A DNA stretch of 64,000 nt from Streptomyces sp. NBC_01689 (GTDB taxonomy: Bacteria; Actinomycetota; Actinomycetes; Streptomycetales; Streptomycetaceae), in NCBI RefSeq assembly GCF_036250675.1, contig NZ_CP109592.1, positions 6,324,001-6,388,000 on the forward strand. Reading direction: 5' to 3'. This document shows positions 14,297-49,459 of this stretch, in pieces (the stretch's first letter is position 1; each line of letters opens with the position of its first letter). A model generated the notes under the pieces. That model was given only the letters and a program-made list of their open reading frames with translations. It was not told where the DNA came from and did no database searches. Position numbers and translations under genes: made by a program.

Positions 14297-15978
14297 AGGG
14301 ACGGCACCCCGCTCCCGTCGGGGGAGCACTCCTGGACCGTGGCGAAGTACCGGCCGAGCCAGGCGCGCCGCTCGTCGTCGCCCAGGGCGGCGAGGCGCGC
14401 GTACGCCCTGTCCTCGGCGCGGAACCCGGCCGGCACCCCCGCGTCGCCGCGCTCGCGCGCCGATCGCAGGGAGCGTTCGCGGTAGTCCTTCCACGCGGAG
14501 TGCGGGGCCAGCCAGCGCAGCACGGCCCCGTCGACGGCTCGGACGCGCCCCGCGGACGGAGTCCTCCCGCACTCAGGACGCACCTGGACCAGGTTCAGGG
14601 CGGCCTGCCAGGCGTACCCCCGCGGATCGAGCACCCTGCCGCGCACCGACCACCAGCCGAGCGGGGTGAGCAGCGGCAGCTCCGCCTCGTCCGCGCGCGG
14701 ACGGCGCGACAGGTCCTCGAAGCGGACCGGTACGTTGTGTACGCCCTGCAGCCGGGCGGTGACCCCGGACAGCACCCGGACCGCCTCCGGCAGCAGATCC
14801 GGACGGGTGGCGTTGACGCAGACGTGCGGGGTGGTCGAGTCGTCGCACACCTGACGGTGCGCGAGCGGGTTGTCGCGCACCCTCCCGTCACCCGTGTGGA
14901 GCAGCAGCGCGGCGGCGACGAGGGACGCGGCGAGCGGCAGCAGGGCGGTGCCGCGGCGACGGGCGGAATGGGCCAGCACCGCGGCGGCGGCGAGCCCGGC
15001 CGCCCACAGGGCCGACACGAGGGGACACCACCAGACCGGCAGACCGCCGTCGCCGACCAGTCGCAGGGAGGCCGGGGCCAGCGCGGCGGGACCGGAGGAG
15101 GAGCCGGTGGTGACGCCGGCCAGGACGTACCCGCCGACCGCGAGCAGGGGAGGCGCCGCCCGCCAGGGCAGCACCCGCCCGGCGACCTGCCCGAGCACCG
15201 CGCACGCGGCGATGGACAGCGCGTCCCCGGCGAAGACGGTCGGGACCGGGCCGCCCGCCGACACATAGGGTGCGCAGGCCAGCAGCGCGCCGGCCACCGC
15301 CACCAGGTACGCACCCGCCAGCACGCAGGCGAGCGGCAGGGCGGCGGTCAGGAGCTGGGCGAGCGGGCCGCGCGGGCTCGACGCGCGCAGGTCCGTCATC
15401 CGCCGCCGGCGGTCCCGGCCGCCCTGCCAGGCTCCCGCGGCGAGGGCGAAGGGGACGCCGATCACCGCGGCGGCCGTGCTCAGCCTGCCCGTCGTCGCGC
15501 CCCAGCTGCCCTGCCACTGTGCCGCCGTGGCCGCGAGCGGCCAGCCGAGAGCCACCAGCAGCGCGGCGGCCGCCCAGGGGGTGGACCCGCGCAGGAACTC
15601 GGTGCGGAGGGGGTGCGGCGCGCGGGCCGCCGGACCGGCGGCCGCGAGGGGTGGGGCGCCCGCCGCGCGGACGGAAGGCTCCCGGGCCGGTGTGCTCGTG
15701 GCGGGCCCCGGGCGGGGGTGGGGGCGACGGTCCGCCGGGCTGTTGTCCTCCGCTCCCGGCCCCGGGGCGGCGGGGTGCTGGTGTGCCGGTCCGTCCGGGC
15801 GGGCGGCCGGGGGGCCGTCGTCCGGCTCGGGCCGCCGGTGCGGTCGCGGGGTCCGGCCGGGCGGGGTGTGCGGGCCTGCAAGGGTGTGCGGGCCGGGCAG
15901 GGTGTGCGGGTCGGCCAGTGCGTCTCGGGCCGACGGTCCGGCCGGGCGGTCCTCGTCCGGGTGGACGCGTGCGGTCAT
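14293..15978 (-). CDS. Large membrane protein, ABC-exporter-associated
   Basis: 561 residues. The first ~125 are disordered, Pro/Arg/Ala-rich, with short repeats (GPHTLAGPHTPPG). They are followed by several membrane helices (WAAAALLVALGWPLAATAA through LAHSARRRGTALLPLAAS, ~135-375). A soluble C-terminal domain of ~170 residues contains two Cys early (QVCDDSTTPHVCVN) and two later (RPECGRT and VQECSPDG). The membrane part resembles ABC-2-type permeases, and the C-terminal part is probably extracytoplasmic. The ATG at 15978 overlaps the ATPase stop codon (ATGA). Confidence 0.68.
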   Translation of the reverse strand: MTARVHPDEDRPAGPSARDALADPHTLPGPHTLAGPHTPPGRTPRPHRRPEPDDGPPAARPDGPAHQHPAAPGPGAEDNSPADRRPHPRPGPATSTPAREPSVRAAGAPPLAAAGPAARAPHPLRTEFLRGSTPWAAAALLVALGWPLAATAAQWQGSWGATTGRLSTAAAVIGVPFALAAGAWQGGRDRRRRMTDLRASSPRGPLAQLLTAALPLACVLAGAYLVAVAGALLACAPYVSAGGPVPTVFAGDALSIAACAVLGQVAGRVLPWRAAPPLLAVGGYVLAGVTTGSSSGPAALAPASLRLVGDGGLPVWWCPLVSALWAAGLAAAAVLAHSARRRGTALLPLAASLVAAALLLHTGDGRVRDNPLAHRQVCDDSTTPHVCVNATRPDLLPEAVRVLSGVTARLQGVHNVPVRFEDLSRRPRADEAELPLLTPLGWWSVRGRVLDPRGYAWQAALNLVQVRPECGRTPSAGRVRAVDGAVLRWLAPHSAWKDYRERSLRSARERGDAGVPAGFRAEDRAYARLAALGDDERRAWLGRYFATVQECSPDGSGVPSL

Positions 15979-16805
15979 CGGGCCGCCCCCGTCCCCACCG
16001 TCGTGCGGTGGCCGCGCAGCGCCCTGGTGTAGCCGCGCTCGATCGCGTTGCCGTCGGACTCGTGACCGTCCGCCCCGAGGGCGGCCAGCGTCCCGGGGGT
16101 GCCGCGGTAGGCGACCCGGCCCGCCTCGATCAGCGTCACCTGCGTGCACGCGGCGGCCACGTCCTCCACCAGATGGGTGGAGACGATCACGGTGGCCTCC
16201 TCACCCAACTCCCGCAGCAGTGCCCGGAACTCGACGCGCTGCTCCGGGTCGAGTCCGGCGGTGGGCTCGTCGAGGAGCAGCACCCGGGGATCGTTCACGA
16301 TGGCCTGGGCGACTCCGACGCGGCGGATCATCCCTCCGGACAGCGTCCGGACCTTCGCGTCGATCCGGTCGGTGAGCCCGACCCGGGCCACGGCCCGCTC
16401 GACCGACGCCGCGGCGTCACCGGCCGGGAGCTCCTTCAACCAGGCCACGTACGCCACGAATTCGCGGACCGTGAACCCCGGGTAGAACCCGAAGTCCTGT
16501 GGCAGATAGCCGAGTCGGCGGCGGAACGCGGCGCGCGCCCCGTGCCGACGCAGGTCGTCGCCGGACATCTCCACGCGGCCCGCGGTGGGTTCGGCGACGG
16601 TCGCGAGGACCCGGAGCAGAGAGGTCTTGCCGGCCCCGTTGGGGCCGAGCAGGCCGTGGACACCGGGGCCGAAGTCCAGGTCGACCGCGTCGAGCGCGGT
16701 GGTCCTGCGGTGCCGGACCGTCAGCTCCGACACCCGGATCGCGGCGGGTCCGGTGTCCCGGCCCCCGTCCCCCGGGCAAGTGCCGTGCGGTGCTGGGGTG
16801 TTCAC
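15975..16805 (-). CDS. ABC transporter ATP-binding protein
   Basis: 276 residues. Walker A GPNGAGKTS, Q-loop YLPQDFGFYPGFT, signature LSGGMIRRV, Walker B VLLLDEP and the switch His in VIVSTHLVED are all intact. It belongs to the DrrA/CcmA-like exporter ATPases. The GTG start at 16805 overlaps the stop of the anti-sigma gene, and its own stop overlaps the next start. Its partners are the membrane proteins on both sides. The substrate is unknown. Confidence 0.9.
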   Translation of the reverse strand: MNTPAPHGTCPGDGGRDTGPAAIRVSELTVRHRRTTALDAVDLDFGPGVHGLLGPNGAGKTSLLRVLATVAEPTAGRVEMSGDDLRRHGARAAFRRRLGYLPQDFGFYPGFTVREFVAYVAWLKELPAGDAAASVERAVARVGLTDRIDAKVRTLSGGMIRRVGVAQAIVNDPRVLLLDEPTAGLDPEQRVEFRALLRELGEEATVIVSTHLVEDVAAACTQVTLIEAGRVAYRGTPGTLAALGADGHESDGNAIERGYTRALRGHRTTVGTGAAR

Positions 16806-25679: not shown

Positions 25680-26456
25680 ATGCTGCTCACCGACAAGACC
25701 GCGATCATCTACGGCGCCGGCGGATCCATCGGCGGTGCCGTCGCGCGCACCTTCGCCCAGGAGGGCGCCCGCGTCCACCTGGTGGGGCGTACCGGCGAGA
25801 CGCTGGACACGGTGGCGAAGGACATCACGGCCGCGGGCGGGTACGCCGAGACCGCGGTGCTCGACGCGCTCGACGAGGCGGCGGTCGAGGCGCACGTCGC
25901 GTCGCTGGACGCCGTCGACATCTCGTTCAATCTGGTCACGCGGGGCGACGTGCAGGGCGTTCCGCTGGTCGACCTGCCGGTCGAGGACTTCGTACGGCCC
26001 GTCGAGACCGGTCTGCGCGCCGCCTTCACGACCGCGCGCGCCGCCGCCCGGCGGATGGCCGAGGCGGGCTCGGGCGTGGTGCTCACGCTCAACAGCGGCT
26101 CCGCGCACGGCAGTCCGATGATGGGCGGCACCGGACCGGCCGACGCGGCGATCGACACGCTGGTACGGAACCTGGCGTCGGAGCTGGGACCGCGCGGACT
26201 GCGGGTCGTGGGCCTGTGGGCGGCCGGGGTGCCCGAGACCCTGACCCGGGAGAAGCTCGCCGCCGTCGACAGCCGGATGGACCTCGACGAGACGGCTCTG
26301 CGGGGCCTGCTCGACCGGCTCGCGGGGATGCGGATGACCCGCCGCAATCCCACCCTCGCCGAGATCGCCGCGACCGCCGCCTTCCTCGCCTCCGACCGGG
26401 CGGGCGGCATCACCGGCACGTTCGTCAACGTCACCGGCGGGATGGTCCCGCACTGA
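25680..26456 (+). CDS. Short-chain dehydrogenase/reductase-fold protein lacking the catalytic Tyr-Lys pair
   Basis: 258 residues from the ATG at 25680 (AGGAGA ahead). The nucleotide-binding motif IIYGAGGSIGGAVARTFAQE is intact, and LNSGS provides the Ser position. Where YxxxK should follow, the sequence reads GGTGPADAAIDTLVRNL, so both Tyr and Lys are absent. The C-terminus (GGITGTFVNVTGGMVPH) is normal for the family. It may be a binding protein or use another mechanism. Its 3' end overlaps the convergent M50 gene by 26 bp. Confidence 0.82.
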   Translation: MLLTDKTAIIYGAGGSIGGAVARTFAQEGARVHLVGRTGETLDTVAKDITAAGGYAETAVLDALDEAAVEAHVASLDAVDISFNLVTRGDVQGVPLVDLPVEDFVRPVETGLRAAFTTARAAARRMAEAGSGVVLTLNSGSAHGSPMMGGTGPADAAIDTLVRNLASELGPRGLRVVGLWAAGVPETLTREKLAAVDSRMDLDETALRGLLDRLAGMRMTRRNPTLAEIAATAAFLASDRAGGITGTFVNVTGGMVPH

Positions 26457-27708
26457 GTCTGCGCCCCCGCCACCAGGTGCGCGCCCACAGCAGGTGGACC
26501 CCGCCGAGCGCGACCACGACCGCCGCCGAGTCGAGGCGCTGGGCGGCGGAGTGGCCCGCGCCCAGGCGGGAGACCGCGCGGGCGAACAGGGTGACGTCCG
26601 CGGGCAGCGTGACGGCGAGGAGGAACGCGAGACACAGCGCGGTGCCCACGACGAGCACGGCGCTGTACACGCGCACGGCCCGCCGTTCGTGGGCGGGCAG
26701 GTCGCGGCTCGGATCGGGGGCGTGTGCCCGCCGCAGCAGGCGGCGGGCCGTGTACCTGGAGAACGCCAGCCCGTCCCCGTACAGATCACGGCAGCGCGTC
26801 AGGTCCTGGAGCACGAAGTACAGGTCCGTGCGCATGAAGACCATCAGCTGGAAGGGGAGCGGGAGCAGGGCGAGCAGCGCGAGGGCGGCGAGCACCCGGC
26901 GTGCCGTGCCGTCGGTGGCGTCGGCCGCGAGGGCGGCGAGCGAGGCGACGGACAGGTTGGTCGCGATGCCGGCGAGATAGGCGGTCAGACGGTGCCGGCG
27001 CGGGGCGAGTTCGATGCCGCTGATGTCCGTCTGCATGACGAGGAACTGGAGCCGGGTGCCCAGCCGCATCCGGCCCGGCACGCCGGTCGCGCGGGCGGCC
27101 ACCAGGTGGGCGCATTCGTGGAGCAGCAGCAGGGCCCACCCCGCGCCCGCTCCGAGGGCGATCACCGCGCTGCCGTGCGGGCTCCACAGGAGGGTGCGGT
27201 AGCCGAGCGGGACGGGCGGACGGACGAGGAGGGCGGCCGCGATCAGCAGCCCGACCAGGACCGGGACGACGGGGCTCAGTACCCAGCGCACGTGCCGGGG
27301 GCGGATGCGGGCGAGCGTCGGTTTCGGCGGAGGCGGCCCCTGCGTGGGCCGTCCGTCCACTTCGGCCACGAACCCGAGGTCCACCAGCGCCTCGACGAAA
27401 TCGGGTACGTCGATGTCGTCTCCGGTCGCCTTCCGCAGCCGTCGCCCGACCTCGGCGGCGTCCAGCCCCTGCCCGAGCAGGTCCAGCGCCTGTTTGCCGA
27501 CCTCGGGCAGCGCGACGAACCGGCCGGTCGCCAGCCGTCCGACGATCCATTCGTCCCCGTCGGGACGGGAGTCGAGCCGGTGGAGCCGTACGTGCGGGGC
27601 GGCGCCGGCTCCGGGGACCGGGGCGCGGGCGGGGGCGTGGGCGGGGCTCGCCGGGGGGTGGCCGGTGGGGCCGGCGCACCCGTGACGCTCCTCGGCGGAC
27701 GGGGTCAC
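26431..27708 (-). CDS. M50-type membrane zinc metalloprotease with N-terminal PqqD/RRE-like domain
   Basis: 425 residues from the GTG at 27708, which overlaps the ThiF stop (GTGA). After a Pro/Ala-rich head (~38 residues), a winged-helix-like segment (~40-120; GRFVALPEVGKQALDLLGQG, then a VEALVDLGFVAEVDG helix) resembles PqqD/RiPP-recognition domains. Hydrophobic helices follow. The zinc motif HECAH is at 197-201 within LLLLHECAHLVAARATGVPG, and the likely third ligand is in RTDLYFVLQDL (~293-303). More helices fill the C-terminal part. M50/site-2-type enzymes cleave within or near the membrane. Coupled to a ThiF enzyme and opposite two tiny peptide genes, it is a candidate leader peptidase or exporter-protease for the peptides. 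Confidence 0.82.
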   Translation of the reverse strand: MTPSAEERHGCAGPTGHPPASPAHAPARAPVPGAGAAPHVRLHRLDSRPDGDEWIVGRLATGRFVALPEVGKQALDLLGQGLDAAEVGRRLRKATGDDIDVPDFVEALVDLGFVAEVDGRPTQGPPPPKPTLARIRPRHVRWVLSPVVPVLVGLLIAAALLVRPPVPLGYRTLLWSPHGSAVIALGAGAGWALLLLHECAHLVAARATGVPGRMRLGTRLQFLVMQTDISGIELAPRRHRLTAYLAGIATNLSVASLAALAADATDGTARRVLAALALLALLPLPFQLMVFMRTDLYFVLQDLTRCRDLYGDGLAFSRYTARRLLRRAHAPDPSRDLPAHERRAVRVYSAVLVVGTALCLAFLLAVTLPADVTLFARAVSRLGAGHSAAQRLDSAAVVVALGGVHLLWARTWWRGRRLSAGPSRR

Positions 27709-29162
27709 CCCGGTTCTCCGGCCGGGCTTCCCGGCCGGCCCGGGGGCGAGCCTCCGTCCGTGTCCCCGGGCCGGACCCCGGCCCGGGGAACGGCGGAGCC
27801 GGAGGGCGGCTCGGACGGGGCGGACCGAGTGGGCGGCTCGGGCGGGGCGGACCGAGTGGGCGGCTCGGACGGGGCGGACGGCTCCGATGGCTCGGGCGTG
27901 GCGGGCCGGGTAGGCGGTTCGGGCGGTTCGGGCCGGGCGGGTCCTCCGGTGGGACGGTCGCCGCAGGCCGGGCAGTCGGGTCGCCGCGGGGACCTCTCCA
28001 GGACCGGATCCCCCGGCAGCATCAGGTTCATCCCGAAGCGGAAGCCCGGTTCGAGTGCGGGCACGCCCGTGAGCAGGGCCAGGGCCGCGTGGGCGAGCAG
28101 GCCGCCGGAGAGACCGGCGGTGACCGCGCTCGCCGGGTTCCACGGCAGATGCGGGGAGGCGACCCGCTCGTCCTGTCCCGGCGCCAGCCGCAGATCGCGG
28201 CGGGCGACCTCGGTGGCCCGCAGACACTCCCAGCAGGCGCCCCGGCCCGGCACGTGCACCCCGGCCGTCACCAGGGGACCCCGGTATCCGGCGTCGACCC
28301 ACGGCAGGCCCGCGGCCAGGCAGACACGGTTCGCCCACCGCCGGATGTCGTCCGGGCGGTCGGCGGCGAGAACCAGCAGGTCGTACGGCTCGGACGCGCC
28401 CGTGGTCGTGGACGCGTCCGGAGCCCCGGGCGGGGGCGGGCTCCCGGACGGACGCGAGCCCCCGGGAGCCCCGGCCCGCACCAGCTCCGTCAGATCCCCC
28501 GGCCCGCGCACCTCCCGCCGTTCCCCGGTCACCGTCACGTCCGAGTTCAGGGCCCGCAGGGTGGCGAGCGCGGCCTCGACCTTGGGGCGGCCGAGGTCGG
28601 ACTCGCGGAACAGGGGCTGGCGGTTGAGGTTCGACAGTTCGACCACGTCCGGGTCCACGCAGTGCAGCCGGCCGACCCCGGACGCGACCAGGCTCTGCGC
28701 GGCGTACCCGCCGGTCCCGCCGACGCCGATCAGCAGCACGCGGGCACCGCCCAGCCGGAGCTGGGTGTCCCACGGGGTCGCGCGGGGCCCGAGGTCCATC
28801 CAGCGCAGCAGCGGCACGCCCCGGCTGTAGCGGACGCGCTCCCGCCCGGACACCGGTACGGGCGCGCCCGCGTCCTCCACGAACCCGGCGTCGAGCAGAT
28901 CGGCCATCGCCTGCCGGGTGTCCCCGTCCGTGAGACCGGGAAGCCCGGGATGCGCCCGCAGCACCGTGTCGACCACCTCGGCGGGCCGTCGCGTCCCGTC
29001 CATCGCCTCGACCAGGGTCCAGACCCAGCCCTCCGGGTCCGCGATCTCCGCGCCGATGCCGTGGACGACGCTGCCGATGCGGACGTTGCCGTCGATCGTG
29101 CGGTAGGGCCGGTGCTCGGGTTTGATCCGGGGCCGGCGGAGCGTGTCGACCGTGACCGTCAC
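27705..29162 (-). CDS. ThiF/MoeB/MccB-like adenylating enzyme with N-terminal PqqD/RRE-like domain
   Basis: 485 residues from the GTG at 29162 (GAAGGGG ahead). Residues ~10-98 look like a leader-recognition winged helix (EGWVWTLVEAMDGTRRPAEV and AMADLLDAGFVEDAG). The E1 core follows: LLIGVGGTGGYAAQSL (ATP loop, 143-158), CVDPDVVELSNLNRQPLF (Asp170; Arg181), and two zinc pairs CWEC (310/313) and CPAC (397/400). A ~30-residue Pro/Ser/Thr-rich insert sits at ~233-258, and a repetitive Pro/Glu/Ser tail starts at ~405. The family activates a C-terminal carboxylate as acyl-AMP. In MccB the target is a short ribosomal peptide. No sulfur-carrier or ubiquitin-like gene is nearby, so the adjacent 24-25-residue peptides are the natural substrates. 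Confidence 0.85.
   Translation of the reverse strand: MTVTVDTLRRPRIKPEHRPYRTIDGNVRIGSVVHGIGAEIADPEGWVWTLVEAMDGTRRPAEVVDTVLRAHPGLPGLTDGDTRQAMADLLDAGFVEDAGAPVPVSGRERVRYSRGVPLLRWMDLGPRATPWDTQLRLGGARVLLIGVGGTGGYAAQSLVASGVGRLHCVDPDVVELSNLNRQPLFRESDLGRPKVEAALATLRALNSDVTVTGERREVRGPGDLTELVRAGAPGGSRPSGSPPPPGAPDASTTTGASEPYDLLVLAADRPDDIRRWANRVCLAAGLPWVDAGYRGPLVTAGVHVPGRGACWECLRATEVARRDLRLAPGQDERVASPHLPWNPASAVTAGLSGGLLAHAALALLTGVPALEPGFRFGMNLMLPGDPVLERSPRRPDCPACGDRPTGGPARPEPPEPPTRPATPEPSEPSAPSEPPTRSAPPEPPTRSAPSEPPSGSAVPRAGVRPGDTDGGSPPGRPGSPAGEPG
27804..27880. repeat. 27-bp tandem repeat in the ThiF C-terminal tail
   Basis: About 2.8 copies of a 27-bp unit beginning GGGCGGCTCGG and ending GACCGAGT. It encodes a nine-residue Pro-Glu-Pro-Pro-Thr-Arg-Ser-Ala-type motif on the minus strand and keeps the frame. 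Confidence 0.85.
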
Positions 29163-29189
29163 CAGGACCCCTTCCCGTTACAGGTACAT

Positions 29190-29226
29190 GCCTTGACACT
29201 CTGGTGCCCCGAGTCGAGCCTTGACA
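29190..29226. promoter_or_regulatory. Duplicated GCCTTGACA element in the divergent peptide/ThiF spacer
   Basis: Identical 9-mers at 29190-29198 and 29218-29226, offset by 28 bp, in the 123-bp spacer between the ThiF gene and the first peptide gene. TTGACA matches a -35 box, but no convincing -10 follows either copy at 16-18 nt. They may be regulator half-sites. Confidence 0.4.
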
Positions 29227-29285
29227 AGACGCGGTCGGCGATCGCGTCGCGATGCACAACATCCTTGTGAGGGGGAGGAGTTGGC

Positions 29286-29363
29286 ATGCCTACCAAGATC
29301 GTGATCCGTCCGTTGGACAAGAAGGAGACCACGGGCGACAGCAGCGGGGGCAACGGCGGCTGA
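29286..29363 (+). CDS. Candidate RiPP precursor peptide 1 (25 residues)
   Basis: The ATG follows GGGGGAGGAG with a 5-nt spacer. The peptide starts MPTK, continues with the block IVIRPLDKKETTG (residues 5-17) and ends DSSGGNGG. The block is shared residue for residue with the second peptide 160 bp downstream, and the DNA is identical over 36 nt. The C-terminal eight residues are Gly/Ser/Asn-rich and differ between the two. There is no signal peptide and no Cys. The likely reading is a conserved leader with a variable core. The reverse (the block is the mature part) cannot be excluded. The flanking ThiF, M50 and M14 genes are the expected processing enzymes. Confidence 0.72.
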   Translation: MPTKIVIRPLDKKETTGDSSGGNGG

Positions 29364-29492
29364 CCAGCCCGTCGTACTCGTCCGGCGGCCCGGCGCGGAC
29401 CGGGCCGCTCCGTCGCGCGGACCGTCGTGAAGGAGAGGGGACCACATGGCTGCGAGGATCGTGATCCGTCCGTTGGACAAGAAGGAGACCAC
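29297..29492 (+). repeat. 36-nt direct repeat from the two peptide genes
   Basis: Identical 36-nt units at 29297-29332 and 29457-29492 (start GATCGTGATCCG, end AGGAGACCAC) span codons of the shared block. Identity includes third positions, so the duplication is recent or homogenised. Confidence 0.9.
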
Positions 29493-29520
29493 CGGGGCCA
29501 GTAACGCGAACGGCACCTGA
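29446..29520 (+). CDS. Candidate RiPP precursor peptide 2 (24 residues)
   Basis: The ATG follows GGAGAGGGG with a 4-5-nt spacer. It reads MAAR, then IVIRPLDKKETTG, then ASNANGT. Compared with peptide 1, the first residues and the last seven differ while the central 13 are identical. Its stop codon is 12 nt before the ATG of the M14 carboxypeptidase, so peptides and protease are probably one transcript. A tandem paralogue with its own ribosome-binding site supports real expression rather than a chance reading frame. Confidence 0.72.
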   Translation: MAARIVIRPLDKKETTGASNANGT

Positions 29521-29532
29521 CCGGATTCCGGC

Positions 29533-31047
29533 ATGCGGGGAACCCCGTATCCCACCCTGGACGAGCTGCTGAGAGGCGCTCGTGAGGCGGTGGCCGCGCG
29601 GCCCGGCGTCCTGCGACTGCGCGACATCGGGTGCTCGCGTGCCGGCCGTCCGCTGTGGCTGCTGTCGGCCGGGAACGGCCCGCGCCAGCTGCTCACGGTG
29701 GCCGGCGCGCACGCCAACGAACCGGTGGGCGGCGCCACTTCGCTCCGGTGCGCCCGGTACCTCGCCCGTGACCCGAGGATCCTGGGCCGGGGTGCCGGGG
29801 GGCTGGACTGCACCTGGCACTTCCTGCTCTGCCTCGATCCCGACGGGGCGAGTCTCGCCGAGGGCTGGATGACCGCGAGCACCTTCCCCGTCCCGGGGCC
29901 CACGGGCGCGACGGGCGGCCCGGACGTCACTCGGGGTGCGGGTACCCCGAACGTCGCCGGGGGTGCGGAGACCCCGGACGCCGCGTACCGGATGCGTACT
30001 CCGCATGCCGCGGACGCCACGGGAGCCCATGACCCCGCGGCCCTCGTGGGCTCCGGAGGCGCCCCGGAGAGCGCGCACGGACGGACGGCCGCGGTGCCGT
30101 CCGGCGCCGGCCCGGTGCCGGGGGCCGCGGCGCCCGCGGCCCCCACCGGCGCGGCCCCACCCATCGGGAGCTACTACCGGGGCTTCTACCGCCCCGCCTT
30201 CGCCGCCCAGCCCGAGTTCCCGCCCGTCGTCGGCGATCCGCGCGCGCCGATGCCGGAGTCCGAGGCCCTGCTCGGGCTCCTCGACGAACTGCGGCCCGTC
30301 GCGCAGTTCTCGCTGCACGGCGTCGAAGTAGGAGGAACCTTCCTGCAGCTGACCCGGGCGGTGCCCGGAGCGCCCGCCGCCTATCGCCGGATCGCGGCGG
30401 ACCTGGGTGTCCCGCTGGAACACCGGCCCTTCGACGGCATGGGGTGGCTGGTCGAGGGACCGGGCGTCCTCGTCCTGCCCGAGGGCAGCCCCGCCGAGGA
30501 ACGGGACCCCTCCGGGTTCGTCTCGCGGGCGACCTGGCTGCACGGCATGCGGCACGGCACGGTCTCGGCGGTGGTCGAGGCGCCCTTCTGGAGCGTGGCG
30601 GGGGTCGGCGATCCACGGCCGGTGGCCGAACCGCACCGCGAACTCGCCGACGTCAGCGAACTCCTGCTCGGCCGGGTCAAGCAACTGAGTTCATTGGTCG
30701 ACGAGTTGGATCCACAGCCGCCGGAAACAGCCGGCCGGCTGGCCCACTTCACCGCGGCCCGTGAACTGATGGACATCGGCTCCGGCGTCGTGGACACCTG
30801 GAGCGCCGCCGAACTGGCCGCCACCGTGGGCAACTCCGTCTCCCTCGGCATCGCGGCCCGCCGCATCCCGCTGCGCGCGGCGGCCATGATGAGCCAGGCG
30901 CTGGGCGGCGCGCCGGAACTGGACGCGCTCGTGGCCGGATGGGCCCGCGAGCTGGAGCGCACCTTCGACGCCCGCTGGGTGCCCGTCGCCGACCAGACCG
31001 CGCTCCAGGCCCGCACCATGCTCGTCCTCGCCCGCGCCCTGCTGTGA
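29533..31047 (+). CDS. M14-family zinc carboxypeptidase of the peptide locus
   Basis: 504 residues. The M14 zinc motif HxxE is GAHANEPVGG (His60, Glu63). The probable third ligand is the His of FSLHGVEVGG (~263), and the catalytic Glu is in VVEAPFW (~355). A disordered Gly/Ala/Pro/Thr insert at ~125-215 (TPNVAGGAETPDAA and relatives) interrupts the fold between the first zinc pair and the third ligand. No signal peptide is visible, so it is probably cytosolic. It begins 12 nt after peptide 2 with only a weak ribosome-binding site, suggesting coupling. M14 enzymes remove C-terminal residues or cleave isopeptide-like bonds. Trimming the variable C-terminus of the peptides is the simplest inference. 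Confidence 0.8.
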   Translation: MRGTPYPTLDELLRGAREAVAARPGVLRLRDIGCSRAGRPLWLLSAGNGPRQLLTVAGAHANEPVGGATSLRCARYLARDPRILGRGAGGLDCTWHFLLCLDPDGASLAEGWMTASTFPVPGPTGATGGPDVTRGAGTPNVAGGAETPDAAYRMRTPHAADATGAHDPAALVGSGGAPESAHGRTAAVPSGAGPVPGAAAPAAPTGAAPPIGSYYRGFYRPAFAAQPEFPPVVGDPRAPMPESEALLGLLDELRPVAQFSLHGVEVGGTFLQLTRAVPGAPAAYRRIAADLGVPLEHRPFDGMGWLVEGPGVLVLPEGSPAEERDPSGFVSRATWLHGMRHGTVSAVVEAPFWSVAGVGDPRPVAEPHRELADVSELLLGRVKQLSSLVDELDPQPPETAGRLAHFTAARELMDIGSGVVDTWSAAELAATVGNSVSLGIAARRIPLRAAAMMSQALGGAPELDALVAGWARELERTFDARWVPVADQTALQARTMLVLARALL

Positions 31048-31168: not shown

Positions 31169-33742
31169 TCAGGAAGCCGCCGCGTCCGCCGCCTGGGCCT
31201 TCAGGGCGCGCTCGATCCCGGCACGGGACTCCGAGACCAGACGCCGCAGGGCCGCGTTGGACTCGGCGGAGGCCAGCCACGCGTCCGTCTTGGCGAGGGT
31301 CTCCTCGGAGACCTGGATCGACGGGTACAGGCCGACCGCGATCTGCTGGGCGATCTCGTGCGAACGGGAGTCCCAGATGTCCTTCACCACGGCGAAGAAC
31401 CGGTCCGCGTACGGAGCGAGCAGCTCACGCTGGTCGGTCTGCACGAAGCCGCCGATCACCGCCTCCTGCACGGCGTTCGGAAGCTTGTCGGACTCGATGA
31501 CCGAGGTCCAGGCCTCCTCCTTCGCCTCCACGGTGGGGCGGCCCGCCCGCGCGGTGGCCGCGTGCCGCTCACCGGCCGCCGTGCGGTCCCGCTCGTACTC
31601 GGCCGCGATCTCGGCCTCGTCGTAGCGCCCGACCGCGGCGAGCCGCTGGACGAACGCCCAGCGCAGCTCGGTGTCGACGGCGAGACCCTCGACACTCTCC
31701 CGGTCCTCCAGCAGCCCCTCCAGGAGGTCCAGCTGCTCCGGGGTCCGGGCGGTCGCCGCGAACGCGCGCGCCCAGGCGAGCTGGTGGTCGCCGCCGGCCT
31801 CGGCCGCGCGCAGGTGCGCGAGGGTCGCCTCGGTCCAGCGGGTCAGCAGCGTCTCGCGGGTGGCCGGGTCGGCGTACATCTCGATCGCCAGCTTCAGCTG
31901 CCGCTGCAGCGACTGCACGACACCGATGTCGGACTCCTTGCCGATGCCGGACAGCACCAGGGACAGGTAGTCGCGGGTGGCGAGCTCCCCGTCGCGGGTC
32001 ATGTCCCAGGCGGAGGCCCAGCACAGCGCGCGCGGCAGCGAGGACTCGAAGTCGCCGAGGTGCTCCGTCACGAAGGCCAGCGAGTCCTCGTCGAGACGGA
32101 CCTTGGCGTACGACAGGTCGTCGTCGTTGAGCAGGAAGACGGCCGGACGGCGCCGGCCGGCCAGCTCCGGCACGGCGGTCAGCTCACCGTCGACGTCGAG
32201 CTCGATCCGCTCGTCGCGCACCAGCTTGCCGCTCGCGTCGTCGAGGTCGTAGAGGCCGATCGCGATGCGGTGGGGGCGCAGCGTCGACTCGCCCTTGGCG
32301 CCGGCCGGGAGCGCCGGGGCCTCCTGGCGGATCGCGAAGGAGGTGATGACCCCGTTCGCGTCCGTCTCGATCTCGGGGCGCAGGACGTTGATGCCGGCGG
32401 TCCGCAGCCACTTCTCCGACCAGTTCTTCAGGTCGCGCCCGGAGGTCTCCTCCAGCGCGCCCAGCAGGTCGGACAGGCGCGTGTTGCCGTACGCGTGCCG
32501 CTTGAAGTAGGCCTGCACGCCCCGGAAGAACTCGTCCATGCCGACGTACGCGACGAGCTGCTTCAGTACGCTCGCGCCCTTCGCGTACGTGATCCCGTCG
32601 AAGTTGACGAGCACGTCGTCCAGGTCGCGGATCTCCGCCATGATCGGGTGGGTCGAGGGCAGCTGGTCCTGCCGGTACGCCCAGGTCTTCATGGAGTTGG
32701 CGAAGGTGGTCCACGAGTGCGGCCAGCGGCTGCCCTCGGCGTACGCCTGGCAGGCGATGGAGGTGTAGGTGGCGAACGACTCGTTCAGCCACAGGTCGTT
32801 CCACCACTCCATGGTCACGAGGTCGCCGAACCACATGTGGGCGAGCTCGTGCAGGATCGTCTCGGCGCGCACCTCGTACGCGGCGTCCGTGACCTTCGAC
32901 CGGAACACGTACTGGTCCCGGATCGTCACCGCGCCCGCGTTCTCCATCGCGCCGGCGTTGAACTCCGGCACGAAGAGCTGGTCGTACTTCTCGAACGGGT
33001 ACGCGTAGTCGAACTTCTCCTGGAACCACTCGAAGCCCTGCCGGGTGACCTCGAAGATCGCGTCCGAGTCGAGGAACTCGGCGAGCGAGGGACGACAGTA
33101 GATGCCGAGCGGCACGCTCTGTCCGTCCTTCTCGTACACGCTGTGCACCGAGTGGTACGGGCCGACGATCAGCGCGGTGATGTACGTGGAGATCCGCGGA
33201 GTCGGCTCGAAGGCCCAGATGTCGTCCTTGGGCTCGGGCGTCGGCGAGTTGGAAATGACGGTCCAGCCGGAGGGCGCCTTCACGGTGAACCGGAAGGTGG
33301 CCTTCAGGTCGGGCTGCTCGAAGGACGCGAAGACGCGCCGGGCGTCCGGGACCTCGAACTGGGTGTACAGGTAGGCCTGCTGGTCGACGGGGTCGACGAA
33401 CCGGTGCAGGCCCTCGCCGGTGTTGGTGTACGCGCAGTCCGCGACGACCCGCAGGACGTTGCGGCCCTCCAGCAGGCCCGGCAGCGCGATCCGCGAGTCC
33501 TCGAAGACGTCGGCGGGGTCGAGGGCGTCCCCGTTCAGGACCACCTCGTGAACGGCGGGGGCCACCAGGTCGATGAAGGTCTCCGCGCCGCTCTCGGCCA
33601 CGTCGAAGCGCACCGTGGTCACGGACCGGTAGGTGCCGCCCTCCTGCGCGCCCGAGAGGTCGAGATCGATCTCGTACGAGTCAACGGTGAGCAGCTTCGC
33701 GCGCTGCTGCGCCTCTTCGCGGGTCAGGTTTGTGCCAGGCAC
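31169..33742 (-). CDS. pepN: Aminopeptidase N (M1 family), first paralogue
   Basis: 857 residues from the GTG at 33742 (GAGGAG ahead). The exopeptidase motif GAMENAG is followed by the zinc site HELAHMWFGDLVTMEWW, with the third ligand in WLNESFA. A C-terminal ERAP1-like helical domain fills the last ~330 residues. No signal peptide, so it is cytosolic. It releases N-terminal residues from peptides during protein turnover. A second M1 enzyme lies at 46856-49459. Confidence 0.95.
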   Translation of the reverse strand: MPGTNLTREEAQQRAKLLTVDSYEIDLDLSGAQEGGTYRSVTTVRFDVAESGAETFIDLVAPAVHEVVLNGDALDPADVFEDSRIALPGLLEGRNVLRVVADCAYTNTGEGLHRFVDPVDQQAYLYTQFEVPDARRVFASFEQPDLKATFRFTVKAPSGWTVISNSPTPEPKDDIWAFEPTPRISTYITALIVGPYHSVHSVYEKDGQSVPLGIYCRPSLAEFLDSDAIFEVTRQGFEWFQEKFDYAYPFEKYDQLFVPEFNAGAMENAGAVTIRDQYVFRSKVTDAAYEVRAETILHELAHMWFGDLVTMEWWNDLWLNESFATYTSIACQAYAEGSRWPHSWTTFANSMKTWAYRQDQLPSTHPIMAEIRDLDDVLVNFDGITYAKGASVLKQLVAYVGMDEFFRGVQAYFKRHAYGNTRLSDLLGALEETSGRDLKNWSEKWLRTAGINVLRPEIETDANGVITSFAIRQEAPALPAGAKGESTLRPHRIAIGLYDLDDASGKLVRDERIELDVDGELTAVPELAGRRRPAVFLLNDDDLSYAKVRLDEDSLAFVTEHLGDFESSLPRALCWASAWDMTRDGELATRDYLSLVLSGIGKESDIGVVQSLQRQLKLAIEMYADPATRETLLTRWTEATLAHLRAAEAGGDHQLAWARAFAATARTPEQLDLLEGLLEDRESVEGLAVDTELRWAFVQRLAAVGRYDEAEIAAEYERDRTAAGERHAATARAGRPTVEAKEEAWTSVIESDKLPNAVQEAVIGGFVQTDQRELLAPYADRFFAVVKDIWDSRSHEIAQQIAVGLYPSIQVSEETLAKTDAWLASAESNAALRRLVSESRAGIERALKAQAADAAAS

Positions 33743-37252: not shown

Positions 37253-40200
37253 TTACTGCGTGACCTTCTCGATCTTCACGTTGCCGAGACCGGCGGCGGT
37301 GCCTCGGGCGTTCACCAGCTGGACCTGGCCGAAGAACTCGCGTCCCTCGGGGGCCGGGGCCAGGGCGGTGATCGTGCCGGACACCGTCGCCGTGCCGCCC
37401 GTGGCGAGCTTCACCGGGGCGGACGCGTCGACGCCGACCGAGCCGAGCGCGGACGAGAAGAAGACGTCACGGTAGTCGTACGCGGTCGAGCCCGACGGGA
37501 CCGAGTAGCCCACGACCTCGACGGTGTACGTGCCGGGGGCGGGGTTCGGGATGGAGACCGCCTCCTCCGAGTCGCCGTCCGCGGACTGGGCGACCTGCTT
37601 GCCGGCGGAGTCGTACACCGTCAGGTCGAGGTCGGCGGCGGTGTCGGAGACGTTGCCGATGGCCACGTCCAGCGAGGCGGCGCCCGCCGGCACGTCGACC
37701 GTGGTGGTCTGCGTGGCGTTCTGGGCGATGGTCGGCCGGTCCGTCTTGGAGGAGCCGAGCGGGCCGCCCCGCAGTCTGCCGTCGATCGCGGCGAACCGGT
37801 TCGTCACCTTCCAGGAGGCGGTGACGGGGGTGCCCACCTTGGCCTCGGGCACCGTCACGGTCTCCGGGTCGAAGGCCGCGCCGAGGACGGTGGCCTCCAG
37901 CTTGTACGGGTTGTCGAGCAGCGGCGACGTACGGCGCGCCTCGACCTCGACCTCCCAGACACCGGGCTGCGGGTCGGCGTACGCGCGCACGTCGGGCTTG
38001 CAGCCGTTGGTGTTGGGGTAGTTGCTGTAGCAGTACGGGGTGCCGGTGTCCTCGACCGGGACGCCGTAGGGGTGGATGGAGATGAACCGGGTCTGGCTCA
38101 GGCCCTTCAGCCCGCCGATGGCGACCTCCAGGCTCCTGGCGCCCTCGGGCACGGTCAGGAAGTACGACCGCGTGCTGTTGCGCTGGATCGAACCCGACGC
38201 GGAGAACGCGTACTTGACCGGCGTCGAGACCACGACCGTGGTCAGGATCTGCCGGTCGACGCCCTCGGTCCGCGGGTCGTCGAGTTCGAGGATCGCGCTC
38301 TTGACGCCGGCCGAGGAGGCCTTGGCGGAGACCTTGACGGTGACCGGCTGGTTCAGTCCGAGCTTCACCTCGTCGGAGCCGACGATCCGGAAGGTGCCAC
38401 CGGCGTTGTTCGCGAAGTGCAGCTCGTGGCGGATGGCCCGGTCCGGACCGGAGGTACGGGTGACGGTGATCTCGTAGGTCTTCTTCACACCGGCCTTGAG
38501 ACCGCCCTCGCGGTCGTACAGTCCGGTGCCGAAGCCGGGGGTCTTCAGCGCGTAGTCGATCGCGGTGTCGACCGGCGCCTTCACCGTGTACTCGTGGGCG
38601 GTCGCGTCGCGCCTGATGGCCTTCCACGCGTCCACGATGTCGATGAGGCCCGCGCCCTCCTCGTACGCCTGCACACCCCTGATGTGGTCGGCGGTCGAGG
38701 TGAGGGCCGTGCGCAGGTCCGCGGGCGTCAGGGCGATGTGCTGCTGCTTGGCGGCGCTCAGCAGCAGCGCGGACGCGCCCGCGGCCTGCGGGGACGCCAT
38801 CGAGGTGCCCTGCAGCATCGAGTAGCCGGCCGGCAGGGTGTAGCCCGCCTCGGCGACCGGGGAGCCCGGCAGCCAGGTCTGGGTGGTGTTGATCGCGGCG
38901 CCGGGTGCCGTCAGCGTCGGCGTGAAGCCGCCGTCCTCACGCGGGCCGCGCGAGGAGAACGGCATCATCGCGTACTTCTTCTCCACGGCCGAGCCGTAGT
39001 TGGCGGCCCAGGTCTCCTTGGAGATCGACGCGCCGACCGAGATGACCTTGTCGGCGAGGCCGGGGTCACCGATGGTGTTGGCACCGGGGCCGGAGTTGCC
39101 GGCGGAGATCACCAGCTGGACGCCGTAGGTGTCGATGAGACGCGTGTAGAGCTCGGAGCGCGCGTTGTTGCCGTCGTTCAGCGCGGGCAGGCCGCCGATG
39201 GACATGTTGACGATGTCGACGCCACGGTTGACGACGAGGTCGATCATGCCCTCGGTGAGCGCGATGTTGGTGCAGCCGGGGCCGAAGACGCAGGCGCGGG
39301 ACGAGACGAGCTTCGCGCCGGGGGCGGCGCCGTTCATCCTGCCGCCGAACAGGCCGTTGGCGGAGGTGATGCCCGCCACGTGCGTGCCGTGCTCGCTGGA
39401 GATGACGCCGATGTTGACGTAGTCGGCCTTGGAACCGGCCGCGTCGTAGACCACGTCCTTGCGGATCTCGACGACGAACGGGATGCGTTCGACGACGTCG
39501 GTCGCCGGGTTGTCCTTGCCGAAGTAGCCGACCTGGAAACCGTCCTTGTACGGCTTCATCGGCACGTCGTCGGTGAAGTCGAGGTTGTCGTTCGTGTCGA
39601 CCCGCACGGTTCCGGAGGCCGGGTCGTAGAGCACGCCCCAGGCGTCGGTGGTGTCGCCGTCGCGGTTCAGGTCGCCCGCTTCGTCGCCGCCCGCGGTGGC
39701 CGACTCGTACATGTAGTTGAACTTGTAGGCGCCGGCGGGGGCCTTGAAGCTCTCGGTGCCCTGACTGGCCGTCGTGATGGCGAAGGACGGGCCGGAGACC
39801 GAACTGGTCATCCGCCGCCAGCTGCCGTCGCCGTCGTTGACCGGGTCGGTGGACGTGACCCAGTCGACGATCTTCCGCTCGCCGGTGGTGGTCTTCTGCA
39901 GCGCGGGGTGGCCCAGGTCCACGCCCGAGTCGAGGATGCCGATGGTGATGCCGCGGCCGTCCGCCTTCGGGTTCTTCTTCACGAAGTCGACGGCGCCCGT
40001 CTCGAAGGACGGGTTGTACGGGTTCTCGGCGGGGGTGTTCTTGTTCGGGGCGGAGCGGGTGACCGTGCCCGTGGCCCGGCCGGCGCCCTTGGCGGTGTCC
40101 GCGCTCGGGGTCGGGTCGTCCAGCGCGATGTCCTGGCGCAGGTCGATGCCGTGCACGGAGGAGAGCTTGGCGGCGGCCGCGATGGCCGCGTCCGCCTTGG

Positions 40201-40564
40201 CGGTCGGGACGGTGGCGCGGACGTAGCCGACCTTGTCGAAGGTCCGGCCGACGAGACCGCCCTGGACCGCGTCCAGTTGCCGGGCGACCTGCTCGGTCTG
40301 GCCGGGCGCGGTGGCGACCATCATGGTGACGTTCTTGGTGCCGTCGGCCTTGGCCTCGGCGAGGAGGGCCGCGTCGTCCGAACCGAGCTTGGCGCTCGCG
40401 GACTTGGTGCCCGGGTCGGGCGTCGCGGCGGGTGCGTGGTCCGCGGCGAGGGCCATGGGTATCGGTCCGGCCGCGGAGAGTGCGGCCACCAGACCGGCGG
40501 CCACGGCTATGCGGGCCACGCGTCTCGCGCCCGACAGTGGAGCGCGCTGGGGGTCGTGGGTCAT
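37253..40564 (-). CDS. Large secreted S8 subtilisin-like serine protease
   Basis: 1103 residues from the ATG at 40564, whose ribosome-binding site AAGGG is at the right distance; an ATG two codons upstream touches it. A signal peptide (RIAVAAGLVAALSAAGPIPM) leads to a ~130-residue inhibitor-like propeptide (VTMMVATAPGQTEQVARQLD). The triad is intact: Asp in TIGILDSGVDLGHP (~212), His in SEHGTHVAGITSA (~392) and Ser in QGTSMASPQAAGASALLL (~588). The Ser-side insert and the C-terminal ~450 residues form beta-rich domains, with a pre-peptidase-like end (PAPGTYTVEVVGYSVPSG). It is probably an extracellular nutritional protease. It is monocistronic. Confidence 0.93.
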   Translation of the reverse strand: MTHDPQRAPLSGARRVARIAVAAGLVAALSAAGPIPMALAADHAPAATPDPGTKSASAKLGSDDAALLAEAKADGTKNVTMMVATAPGQTEQVARQLDAVQGGLVGRTFDKVGYVRATVPTAKADAAIAAAAKLSSVHGIDLRQDIALDDPTPSADTAKGAGRATGTVTRSAPNKNTPAENPYNPSFETGAVDFVKKNPKADGRGITIGILDSGVDLGHPALQKTTTGERKIVDWVTSTDPVNDGDGSWRRMTSSVSGPSFAITTASQGTESFKAPAGAYKFNYMYESATAGGDEAGDLNRDGDTTDAWGVLYDPASGTVRVDTNDNLDFTDDVPMKPYKDGFQVGYFGKDNPATDVVERIPFVVEIRKDVVYDAAGSKADYVNIGVISSEHGTHVAGITSANGLFGGRMNGAAPGAKLVSSRACVFGPGCTNIALTEGMIDLVVNRGVDIVNMSIGGLPALNDGNNARSELYTRLIDTYGVQLVISAGNSGPGANTIGDPGLADKVISVGASISKETWAANYGSAVEKKYAMMPFSSRGPREDGGFTPTLTAPGAAINTTQTWLPGSPVAEAGYTLPAGYSMLQGTSMASPQAAGASALLLSAAKQQHIALTPADLRTALTSTADHIRGVQAYEEGAGLIDIVDAWKAIRRDATAHEYTVKAPVDTAIDYALKTPGFGTGLYDREGGLKAGVKKTYEITVTRTSGPDRAIRHELHFANNAGGTFRIVGSDEVKLGLNQPVTVKVSAKASSAGVKSAILELDDPRTEGVDRQILTTVVVSTPVKYAFSASGSIQRNSTRSYFLTVPEGARSLEVAIGGLKGLSQTRFISIHPYGVPVEDTGTPYCYSNYPNTNGCKPDVRAYADPQPGVWEVEVEARRTSPLLDNPYKLEATVLGAAFDPETVTVPEAKVGTPVTASWKVTNRFAAIDGRLRGGPLGSSKTDRPTIAQNATQTTTVDVPAGAASLDVAIGNVSDTAADLDLTVYDSAGKQVAQSADGDSEEAVSIPNPAPGTYTVEVVGYSVPSGSTAYDYRDVFFSSALGSVGVDASAPVKLATGGTATVSGTITALAPAPEGREFFGQVQLVNARGTAAGLGNVKIEKVTQ

Positions 40565-46855: not shown

Positions 46856-49459
46856 TCAGCCGGCGCTCGTGGCCGTGGTCCCCGCGTCGTGCCGCTGGCC
46901 GCGCAGCGCCCGTGCCAGGTCGTCGCGGGCCTCCAGGACCAGTCGGCGCAGGGCCGGTGCCGCGCCCTCGTGCGCCGCCAGCCACGCGTCCGTCGCGTCC
47001 AGGGTCTCCTGGGAGTCCCGCAGGGAGGGGAACAGCCCCCTGACCACGTCCATGCCGATCTGGATGGACCGTTCGGCCCAGATCCGCTCGATGGCGGCGA
47101 AGTACTTCTCGGCGTACGGGGCGATCAGCTCCCGCTGGGACGCCTGGGTGAAGCCCGCGATGGTCGCCTCCACCAGCGCGTTCGACAGCGTGTCCGACTC
47201 GACGACCTGCGCCCAGGCCTGGGCCTTGACCGCCGCGGACGGGCGGGCGGCGAGGCAGCGGACCTGATGGCGCTTGCCGGAGGCCGTGTCGTCCCGGGCC
47301 AGCTCGGCGGCGAGCGCGGACTCGTCGGCGACACCGTGCGCGGCCAGCGGCTCCAGCAACGCCCAGCGCAGCTCCTGGTCGACGTCCAGGCCGTCGATCT
47401 TCGCCGTGCCGTCCAGCAGGTCCTGGAGCAGCCGCAGGTCGTCCCGTCCGGACGCGACCGCCGCGAAGAAACGGGCCCAGGCCAGCTGGTGCTGGCTGCC
47501 GGGCTCGGCGAGCCGCAGCTCCTTCAGGGCGCCCTCGGCCAGGAGCCGGCCGCCGGTCTCCCGCCAGTCCGGCGCCACGTAGTGGGTGAGCGCCGAGTCG
47601 GCCCAGGCGTGCAGCGTCTGGAGCACGCCGATGTCCGACTCGCGGCCGGCGAAGCGCAGCACCAGGCCGACGAAGTCACGGGCCGGCATCAGCCCGTCCC
47701 GGGTCAGGTTCCACAGCGCCGACCAGCACAGCGCGCGGGCGAGCGGATCGGTCATGTCGCCGAGGAGTTCGCGCAGCGTGGCCAGCGAGGTCTCGTCGAA
47801 GCGGATCTTGCAGTACGTCAGGTCGTCGTCGTTGACGAGGACCAGCTCCGGGGCGTCGGCACCGGCGAGTTCCCCGACCACCGTGCGCGGGCCGTCGACG
47901 TCCGTCTCGACGCGGGCGTAGCGCACCAGCGGACCGGTCTCCCCGTCCGGCCGGGTCTCGCGCCGGTAGAGGCCCACCGCGACGCGGTGCGGGCGCAGTT
48001 CGGGATGCGACTCGGCCGCCTCCTGGAGCACGGACAGTTCGGCCACCCGGCCGTCCGCGCCCAGGATCACCTGCGGGGTCAGCGAGTTGACCCCGGCCGT
48101 CTGCAGCCACGCCCGGGACCAGGTGGCCAGATCGCGTCCGCTGGTCTCCTCCAGCGCCGACAGCAGGTCACCGAGGCGCGTGTTGCCGTACGCGTTCCGC
48201 TTGAAGTAGCGGCGCGCGCCCTCCAGGAACGCGTCCTGGCCGACGTACGCGACGAGCTGCTTGAGGACCGAGGCGCCCTTGGCGTACGTGATGCCGTCGA
48301 AGTTGAGCTTGGCGTCCTGCAGATCGCGGATGTCCGCCGTGACGGGGTGCGTGGACGGCAGCTGGTCGGCACGGTAGGCCCACGCCTTGCGGCGGTTGGC
48401 GAAGGTGATCCAGCCGTCCTTGAAGCGGGTCGCCCCGACCAGCGCGAACGCGCCCATGAAGTCGGCGAAGGACTCCTTGAGCCACAGGTCGTCCCACCAC
48501 TCCATGGTGACGAGGTCCCCGAACCACATGTGCGCCATCTCGTGCAGGACGACGTTCGCCCGGCCCTCGTAGGACGCCTGCGTGACCTTGCCGCGGAAGA
48601 TGTACTCCTCGCGGAAGGTGACGAGCCCCGGGTTCTCCATCGCGCCGAGGTTGTACTCGGGCACGAAGGCCTGGTCGTACTTGCCGAAGGGGTACGGGTA
48701 GTCGAAGTGGTCGTGGAAGAAGTCCAGACCCTGCTTGGTGACGAGGAAGACGTCGTCCGCGTCGAAGTGGGGCGCGAGACCCTTACGGCACATCGCGCCG
48801 AGCGGGATCTCCAGCGTCGTACCGTCGTCGAAGGTACGGGAGTAGCTGTCCGTCACATAGTGGTACGGGCCCGCCACGATCGCCGTGATGTACGTCGAGA
48901 TCGGCTTCGTCTCGGCGAACTTCCAGACGCCGTCCGTGAGTTCACCGACGCCGTTGCTCCACACCACCCAGCCCTCGGGGGCCCGTGCCTCGAAGCGGAA
49001 GGGCGCCTTGAGGTCCGGCTGCTCGAAGTTGGCGAAGACGCGCCGGGAGTCCGCGGGCTCGTACTGGGTGTAGAGGTAGGTCTCGCCGTCCTCGGGGTCG
49101 ACGAAGCGGTGCATGCCCTCGCCGGTCCGGGAGTAGGCGCACTGGGCGTCGACCACCAGCTCGTTCTCCGCGGCGAGGTCCTCCAGCCGGATGCGGGTGC
49201 CGTCGAAGACCTCGCCGGGGTCGAGGTCCCGCCCGTTGAGCGAGACGGCGGTGACGCTCGGCGCGATCAGGTCGGCGAAGGTCGCGGCGCCGGGCTCGGA
49301 ACAGCGGAAGCGGATCGTGGTGACCGAGCGGAACGTACGGGCTCCGGCCTCGGCGGTGCCCACGGCGGATCGCAGGTCGAGCGAGACCTCGTACCCGTCC
49401 ACGGACAGCAGGGCTGCCCGCTCCTGGGCCTCGTCGCGGGACAGATTCTCACCGGGCAC
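46856..49459 (-). CDS. pepN: Aminopeptidase N (M1 family), second paralogue
   Basis: 867 residues from the GTG at 49459 (GAGGGAG with an 8-nt spacer). This start aligns the N-terminus (VPGENLSRDEAQERAALL) with that of the 31169 paralogue (MPGTNLTREEAQQRAKLL). The core reads GAMENPGLVTF, then HEMAHMWFGDLVTMEWWDDL with LKESFA. All M1 ligands are intact. It is cytosolic with an ERAP1-like C-terminal domain. Two complete PepN proteins 13 kb apart suggest different peptide preferences or expression conditions. Confidence 0.94.
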   Translation of the reverse strand: MPGENLSRDEAQERAALLSVDGYEVSLDLRSAVGTAEAGARTFRSVTTIRFRCSEPGAATFADLIAPSVTAVSLNGRDLDPGEVFDGTRIRLEDLAAENELVVDAQCAYSRTGEGMHRFVDPEDGETYLYTQYEPADSRRVFANFEQPDLKAPFRFEARAPEGWVVWSNGVGELTDGVWKFAETKPISTYITAIVAGPYHYVTDSYSRTFDDGTTLEIPLGAMCRKGLAPHFDADDVFLVTKQGLDFFHDHFDYPYPFGKYDQAFVPEYNLGAMENPGLVTFREEYIFRGKVTQASYEGRANVVLHEMAHMWFGDLVTMEWWDDLWLKESFADFMGAFALVGATRFKDGWITFANRRKAWAYRADQLPSTHPVTADIRDLQDAKLNFDGITYAKGASVLKQLVAYVGQDAFLEGARRYFKRNAYGNTRLGDLLSALEETSGRDLATWSRAWLQTAGVNSLTPQVILGADGRVAELSVLQEAAESHPELRPHRVAVGLYRRETRPDGETGPLVRYARVETDVDGPRTVVGELAGADAPELVLVNDDDLTYCKIRFDETSLATLRELLGDMTDPLARALCWSALWNLTRDGLMPARDFVGLVLRFAGRESDIGVLQTLHAWADSALTHYVAPDWRETGGRLLAEGALKELRLAEPGSQHQLAWARFFAAVASGRDDLRLLQDLLDGTAKIDGLDVDQELRWALLEPLAAHGVADESALAAELARDDTASGKRHQVRCLAARPSAAVKAQAWAQVVESDTLSNALVEATIAGFTQASQRELIAPYAEKYFAAIERIWAERSIQIGMDVVRGLFPSLRDSQETLDATDAWLAAHEGAAPALRRLVLEARDDLARALRGQRHDAGTTATSAG

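Follow-up and report, generated by a model that had tools for sequence, protein, structure and literature searches.

Enzymes of the ThiF (E1-like) family act in several pathways to ribosomally synthesized and post-translationally modified peptides (RiPPs), where a RiPP recognition element (RRE) reads the leader of a precursor and the enzyme activates a carboxylate as the adenylate for capture by a nucleophile. The described members include microcin C, pantocin A, the GrcB thiolactone, enterofaecin, and the IndF indolylamide (PMC12250964, PMC12150305). The locus considered here lies in a 64,000 nt stretch (the window) of Streptomyces sp. NBC_01689, contig NZ_CP109592.1, and combines two micropeptide genes with genes for an RRE-ThiF protein, an M50 site-2 protease, and an M14 carboxypeptidase. 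It is very probably a RiPP pathway of some kind. A first-pass annotation of the window had held that no named RiPP class fits, which is too strong because the ThiF-like adenylyltransferase RiPPs are a described group that includes this locus. The features of that group that can be read from sequence are present: an RRE is fused to the E1/ThiF domain, the ATP-binding Arg, Lys, and Asp are in place, and there is no YcaO partner; so are those of RiPPs in general, with a short encoded precursor, a conserved leader, and a variable core beside modifying-type enzyme genes. A YcaO cyclodehydratase partner would make ThiF only a docking protein. The locus is best described as a relative of the ThiF-type RiPP pathways with its own gene set, for which the bond chemistry is a proposal.

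The whole locus was read from the genome sequence (9.96 Mb, two contigs). Two putative precursor genes lie in tandem on the plus strand, at 29286-29363 (25 aa, MPTKIVIRPLDKKETTGDSSGGNGG) and 29446-29520 (24 aa, MAARIVIRPLDKKETTGASNANGT), with purine-rich ribosome-binding sites (GGGGGAGGAG for peptide 1, AAGGAGAGGGG for peptide 2). Peptide 1 has the leader MPTKIVIRPLDKK, a conserved ETT, and the variable tail GDSSGGNGG; peptide 2 has the same motif and the tail GASNANGT. The M14 gene (29533-31047, plus strand) starts 12 nt after peptide 2. On the minus strand are the ThiF gene (27705-29162, GTG start) and the M50 gene (26431-27708), a coupled pair in which the M50 GTG start overlaps the ThiF stop (GTGA); the ThiF start is divergent from peptide 1 across 123 bp. 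The coordinates, strands, and sequences are as the first-pass annotation had them, with a ribosome-binding site for each micropeptide. Allowing up to three mismatches, a 29-base stretch taken from the peptide gene matches the genome at these two places alone, and no Pfam or NCBIfam model matched either peptide.

Related loci were gathered in two sets. A ThiF scan of 84,980 species genomes gave at least 49 true relatives, and profile searches added 50 loci, not counting the window, some from genomes shared with the first set, for a total of 100 loci (99 relatives, some overlapping, and the window). Loci were obtained for 30 of the 38 matches in the Streptomyces ThiF profile search, one of them (L056) the window, and those of the second set span only ~1.5 kb on either side of ThiF. 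Left out of the counts were the four entries that are the window itself (L052-L054 and L056), other sites in its genome (L107-L111), a distant ThiF-domain match there (L055), and two loci that are not true relatives (L050 and L051). Peptides were identified with a single regular expression, IxIRxL[DEG]xx[EQ]T[TIA] with small variations allowed, followed by a tail of 5-11 residues. This pattern fixes R and T, restricts the Glu position to E or Q, and bounds the tail, so that conservation there is partly imposed by the search; weight was therefore put on positions left free or given wider range (K/R, tail length, Ser). Between 13066 and 42842 the window has 21 other gene calls, of which 20 were searched with Pfam; these are the flanking proteins referred to below.

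A pattern-matching peptide is encoded at 90 of the 100 loci. Among the ten without one (L039, L044, L048, L067, L068, L069, L074, L075, L076, and L077), L048 is cut by a contig end, and L067, L068, and L075 have looser look-alikes. The 106 peptide genes comprise 74 distinct DNA sequences and 54 distinct peptides, and the ThiF proteins fall into 24 clusters at 75% identity. Over the 74 DNA sequences, non-synonymous (pN) and synonymous (pS) change in the 12-codon motif were 0.146 and 0.462, compared with 0.423 and 0.484 for tails of eight residues (n = 43). The motif IxIRxL[D/E][K/R]xET is under constraint, and the G/S/N-rich tail of 7-9 residues is unconstrained. The micropeptides are judged to be real genes because the motif recurs at so many loci and synonymous change exceeds non-synonymous change.

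At the positions carrying most weight, all 54 distinct peptides have K or R after the acidic residue, which the pattern left free, and all have tails of 7-9 residues; Ser is the third tail residue in 33 of 39 distinct tails, with Lys replacing it in a clade with ETI. The core is ETT in both window peptides and ETT, ETI, ETA, or QTT in the pattern-matching relatives. Motif and tail of peptide 1 recur in four relatives (L001, L006, L028, and L090), and two of these (L001 and L028) also have a tail, GDSNANGT, nearly identical to that of peptide 2. Outside Streptomyces the motif is kept in precursors of 35-41 residues (Nocardia, Microbispora, Sphaerisporangium, and Actinacidiphila) or 23 residues (Micromonospora), from script-chosen starts. 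The most precursor genes at any locus are three in tandem, with three different tails (L096:1115-1347). In another relative the precursor follows M50 and has a tail with two cysteines (AQSCPRCA, L102:94-156), hinting at a different ring chemistry there.

The families that recur around ThiF are few. In the first 50 loci (49 and the window) ThiF is found in 50, M50 in 37, and M14 in 35, and the next family in just 10; gene order and flanks vary between clades, and the cassette recurs in unrelated contexts. With the limit for a nearby peptidase set at 2.5 kb from ThiF, M50 is near in 36/49 relatives of the first set and 36/50 of the second, and M14 in 34/49 and 24/50 (within the shorter span of the second set). 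The first-pass annotation had looked to the peptide accompanying the three enzymes wherever they co-occur, and it does so in all 45 relatives with both peptidases near ThiF (26/26 and 19/19). Its view of the peptides as the likely substrates is supported by this and by their presence with ThiF at nine-tenths of the loci.

The ThiF protein (PF00899, 1.2e-38) has an RRE at about residues 10-100 and an E1/ThiF domain at 105-404, followed by a low-confidence Pro/Glu-rich tail. Its nearest homologues are PaaA of pantocin A and MccB of microcin C: its RRE half resembles PaaA, while its last third aligns with MccB and not PaaA, and its closest fold is MccB. R181, K194, and D268 are invariant in 33 ThiF sequences, the first two aligning with PaaA and MccB and the third with MccB. 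RRE, fold, and conserved residues together support its reading, already made in the first-pass annotation, as an RRE-bearing adenylating RiPP enzyme. At E 1e-45, it was found in 38 of the 295 Streptomyces genomes sampled and, in a sample of 394 genomes from the class, in 14; both counts include this genome. It is single in its own genome, which has one distant second match (E 1.4e-11). In a survey of names, in which 7,996 candidates sharing most words were scored, the 120 of 899 relatives listed had only general ones (ThiF, HesA/MoeB, dinucleotide-utilising enzyme, and similar) or none.

Pantocin A of Pantoea offers the closest parallel. Its short precursor, PaaP, likewise has a leader, an internal Glu core, and a C-terminal follower; PaaA is an RRE-ThiF enzyme with R174 and K187 conserved; and the spacing from Arg to Glu is six in both (PaaP R10-E16). 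The core there is Glu-Glu-Asn, however, in contrast to ET[T] here, the ThiF protein here ends like MccB, and M50 and M14 peptidases are added. No family of the pantocin partners PaaB (2OG-Fe(II) oxygenase) or PaaC (EamA transporter) was found by Pfam among the flanking proteins at E 0.001. Microcin C differs in that MccA is a heptapeptide with a required terminal Asn, whereas the precursors here have a leader and variable ends. GrcB, EnfB (enterofaecin), and IndF are also RRE-ThiF enzymes that cyclise a short precursor with ATP, but from streptococci and enterococci and with precursors not recognisably related; the ind cluster also has a metalloprotease, M16 rather than M50 and M14. The locus is thus distinct from pantocin A in its core and partner genes, from microcin C in lacking a required Asn end, and from the daptides (below) in its leader and core. 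No description of the locus family was found in the open-licence PubMed Central literature. The RefSeq scan of the IndF study retained 27,400 RRE-ThiF fusions, and that study points to other network clusters not yet studied (PMC12150305); the micropeptide-ThiF group may well already sit among them unnamed.

The M50 protein has an RRE-like N-terminal domain, a weaker fold match than the RRE on ThiF, fused to a site-2 (intramembrane) metalloprotease with HExxH at residues 196-200 (P0006). Its Pfam and NCBIfam scores fall under their cut-offs, with the NCBIfam daptide model at 19.5 of 300 bits. The structure model is of low confidence (mean pLDDT 67); no Foldseek match of it passed 0.001, and no solved structure was found by sequence search. 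It is probably an RRE-fused site-2 protease akin to the daptide leader peptidase MpaP, which has its RRE fused at the N-terminus, removes the daptide leader, and belongs to clusters with several precursors (PMC10036551). Daptide cores as described there are aliphatic-rich with an invariant C-terminal Thr, and the leader has ELExMEAP; the peptides of this locus have neither, and their cores are polar. Nor were the daptide decarboxylase, aminotransferase, and methyltransferase found by Pfam among the flanking proteins. Of 12 M50 matches in 101 Streptomyces genomes, the best eight are all beside a ThiF match, as read from coordinates, and the other four (E 1e-42 to 1e-53) are not. A second protein of this genome matches the M50 profile with E 9.5e-43 (L108:7905-11212, C1 near 9.015 Mb); it has no Pfam match below 0.01 and is followed by a gene for a 696-aa TPR-repeat protein, possibly another peptide-processing locus.

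The M14 protein (PF00246, 5.5e-9) has intact catalytic motif residues (H60xxE63, H262, and E349). At E 1e-40 the family has members in 172 of the 295 Streptomyces genomes, and this genome has two other copies, so that an M14 specific to the micropeptide locus can be rejected; compared with ThiF in 38 of the 295, the distribution suggests that one M14 member was recruited to the locus. The two further paralogues are convergent (L107:7513-10767, C1 near 2.978 Mb) and by eye adjoin genes resembling glycogen/trehalose enzymes; no micropeptide gene of this kind was noticed between the two. The trimming role given to both peptidases in the first-pass annotation is supported, M50 as a likely leader peptidase and M14 as a possible C-terminal trimming enzyme, though not a dedicated one.

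The pathway tentatively preferred here is as follows. The two micropeptides would be precursors, with IxIRxL[D/E][K/R] as the leader (recognition strand), ET[T] and the following Ser (or Lys) as the reacting region, and the G/S/N-rich tail as a diversifying follower or ring. ThiF would bind the leader in its N-terminal RRE and adenylate a peptide carboxylate, for which the most likely candidate is the conserved Glu side chain, six residues beyond the conserved Arg. A hydroxyl or amine within the peptide, from either the Ser/Lys at tail position 3 or the Thr next to Glu, would capture it with loss of water and give a small macrolactone or macrolactam. The RRE-fused M50 may then bind the same leader at the membrane and remove it, possibly aiding release, and M14 may trim the C-terminal tail. 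The gene content, peptide conservation, RRE on ThiF, intact catalytic motifs, and recurrent co-location are observed, whereas the action of ThiF on the peptide, the reacting groups, the order of steps, and any bioactivity are inferred. The Glu side chain is favored because Glu is near-invariant, its spacing from Arg equals that of PaaP, the RRE half of ThiF resembles PaaA, the end residue is variable, the Ser-to-Lys swap of the ETI clade keeps a nucleophile, and M14 is a natural remover of a follower. If the model is true, the locus, with one enzyme and one tiny peptide, is a compact system in which to study how E1-like enzymes select an internal or a terminal carboxylate, and it offers many small peptides with natural variation in the genus best known for antibiotics. 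It is possible, though speculative, that it represents a new RiPP class, widespread among actinobacteria, whose E1-like enzyme forms side-chain bonds of the graspetide type without an ATP-grasp ligase, the leader being read twice, by the RRE of the cyclase and then that of the intramembrane protease; the Glu-to-Ser bond would be swapped to Glu-to-Lys in the ETI clade.

Some observations weigh against the Glu side chain and for the other live option, ranked below it and doubtful, in which ThiF adenylates the C-terminal carboxylate (as MccB, EnfB, and IndF do) and the conserved Thr/Ser attacks it to close the variable tail into a lactone ring; M14 would destroy uncyclised peptides, the sole ones with a free C-terminus. 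One relative (L092) has Gln in place of Glu, the tail length is narrow, Gly is second-last in 24 of 39 distinct tails and 36 of them end in a small residue (N, S, A, T, or G), and the ThiF fold is closest to MccB. The Thr after Glu is also kept where Glu (QTT) or the second Thr (ETI, ETA) changes, but it is fixed by the search pattern, and two of the looser look-alikes lack it (EAS in L068, KAT in L075). Activation of the C-terminus also leaves the near-invariance of Glu unexplained, and the C-terminal residue is not fixed (S, N, A, T, G, E, and R all occur).

With MccB among the nearest homologues, the activated group could instead be a C-terminal Asn joined to a nucleotide as in microcin C, M14, where present, first trimming to an internal Asn; this is unlikely. 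Asn ends just 10 of 39 distinct tails, and the window peptides end in G and T. Among relatives, whose loci overlap, Asn is terminal in 1 of 73 peptide genes that have M14 nearby and in 18 of the 31 that do not, an association that is confounded by clades and was set aside as proof of microcin C chemistry. The tail contains Asn in 51 of 54 distinct peptides, but Asn makes up 15% of tail residues, so that chance alone would put one in most tails, and three distinct peptides have none; a subtilase is the only serine peptidase among the flanking proteins. It is equally improbable that the peptide is a carrier or scaffold, its C-terminus loaded with sulfur or an amino acid in the style of ThiS/MoaD or the pearlins and freed by M50 or M14. 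The enzyme is E1-like, some peptides end in Gly-Gly or Gly-x, and the pearlin M50 enzymes TglG and TmoG release C-terminal residues of the scaffold (PMC10885120). Against this, the tail changes faster than a carrier end should, M50 is closer to MpaP of the daptides, and Pfam found no lanthipeptide-dehydratase-like ligase or rhodanese-type sulfurtransferase among the flanking proteins. Least probable of all is an E1-like conjugation or phage-defence module, or chance neighbors: PADLOC E1-E2 models match ThiF (best 3.3e-13) over only ~85 residues of its Rossmann part, no E2-like, JAB-like, or nucleotidyltransferase family was found among the flanking proteins, and the RRE on ThiF, the co-conserved precursor with its diversifying tail, and the recurrence of the cassette in unrelated contexts all speak otherwise.

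No recognisable further RiPP-type modifying enzyme was found by Pfam among the flanking proteins. The reported lack of YcaO, lanthionine, lasso, and radical-SAM genes at the locus is borne out among them, and the lanthipeptide, lasso, and radical-SAM classes, also missing from the families that recur with ThiF, were set aside. So were YcaO-dependent classes: the three YcaO matches of the genome (L109-L111, C1 502-516 kb) are 5.8 Mb from the window (6324-6388 kb) and are probably a separate azole or thioamide type cluster. As had been noted, no exporter is adjacent in the window, where the nearest ABC ATPase gene found is at 15975-16733; in four long loci of one clade (L029, L030, L032, and L036), however, the genes have an ABC-transporter pair or its permease next to them or within a few genes, on either side (called by Pfam, for L036 by sequence cluster only).

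The only other peptidases among the flanking proteins are the subtilase (37253-40456) and an M1 aminopeptidase-type protein next to M14 (31169-33742). The M1 gene recurs in 10 of 50 loci and is conserved beside M14 only within the window's clade; a second M1 look-alike was seen by eye at 46856-49468. A DUF6879 gene is near ThiF in 7/49 and 8/50 loci, three of them checked by Pfam. In the 123 bp between ThiF and peptide 1 (29163-29285) are TTGACA (29193-29198) and TTGACAAGA (29221-29229). Aligning the window with 17 relatives, TTGACA recurs between ThiF and the peptide gene in 16 of 18 loci, and a looser T(T/G)GCAAGA or TTGACAAGA element recurs ~20 nt past it; the two could be a shared promoter or operator. 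In one clade (L016, L017, L019, L020, and L021), where no M50 was found, a gene for an AAA/TPR protein of 828-896 aa lies downstream of ThiF (L016:4439-7105, the only one searched with Pfam), presumably resembling the large LuxR-type regulators.

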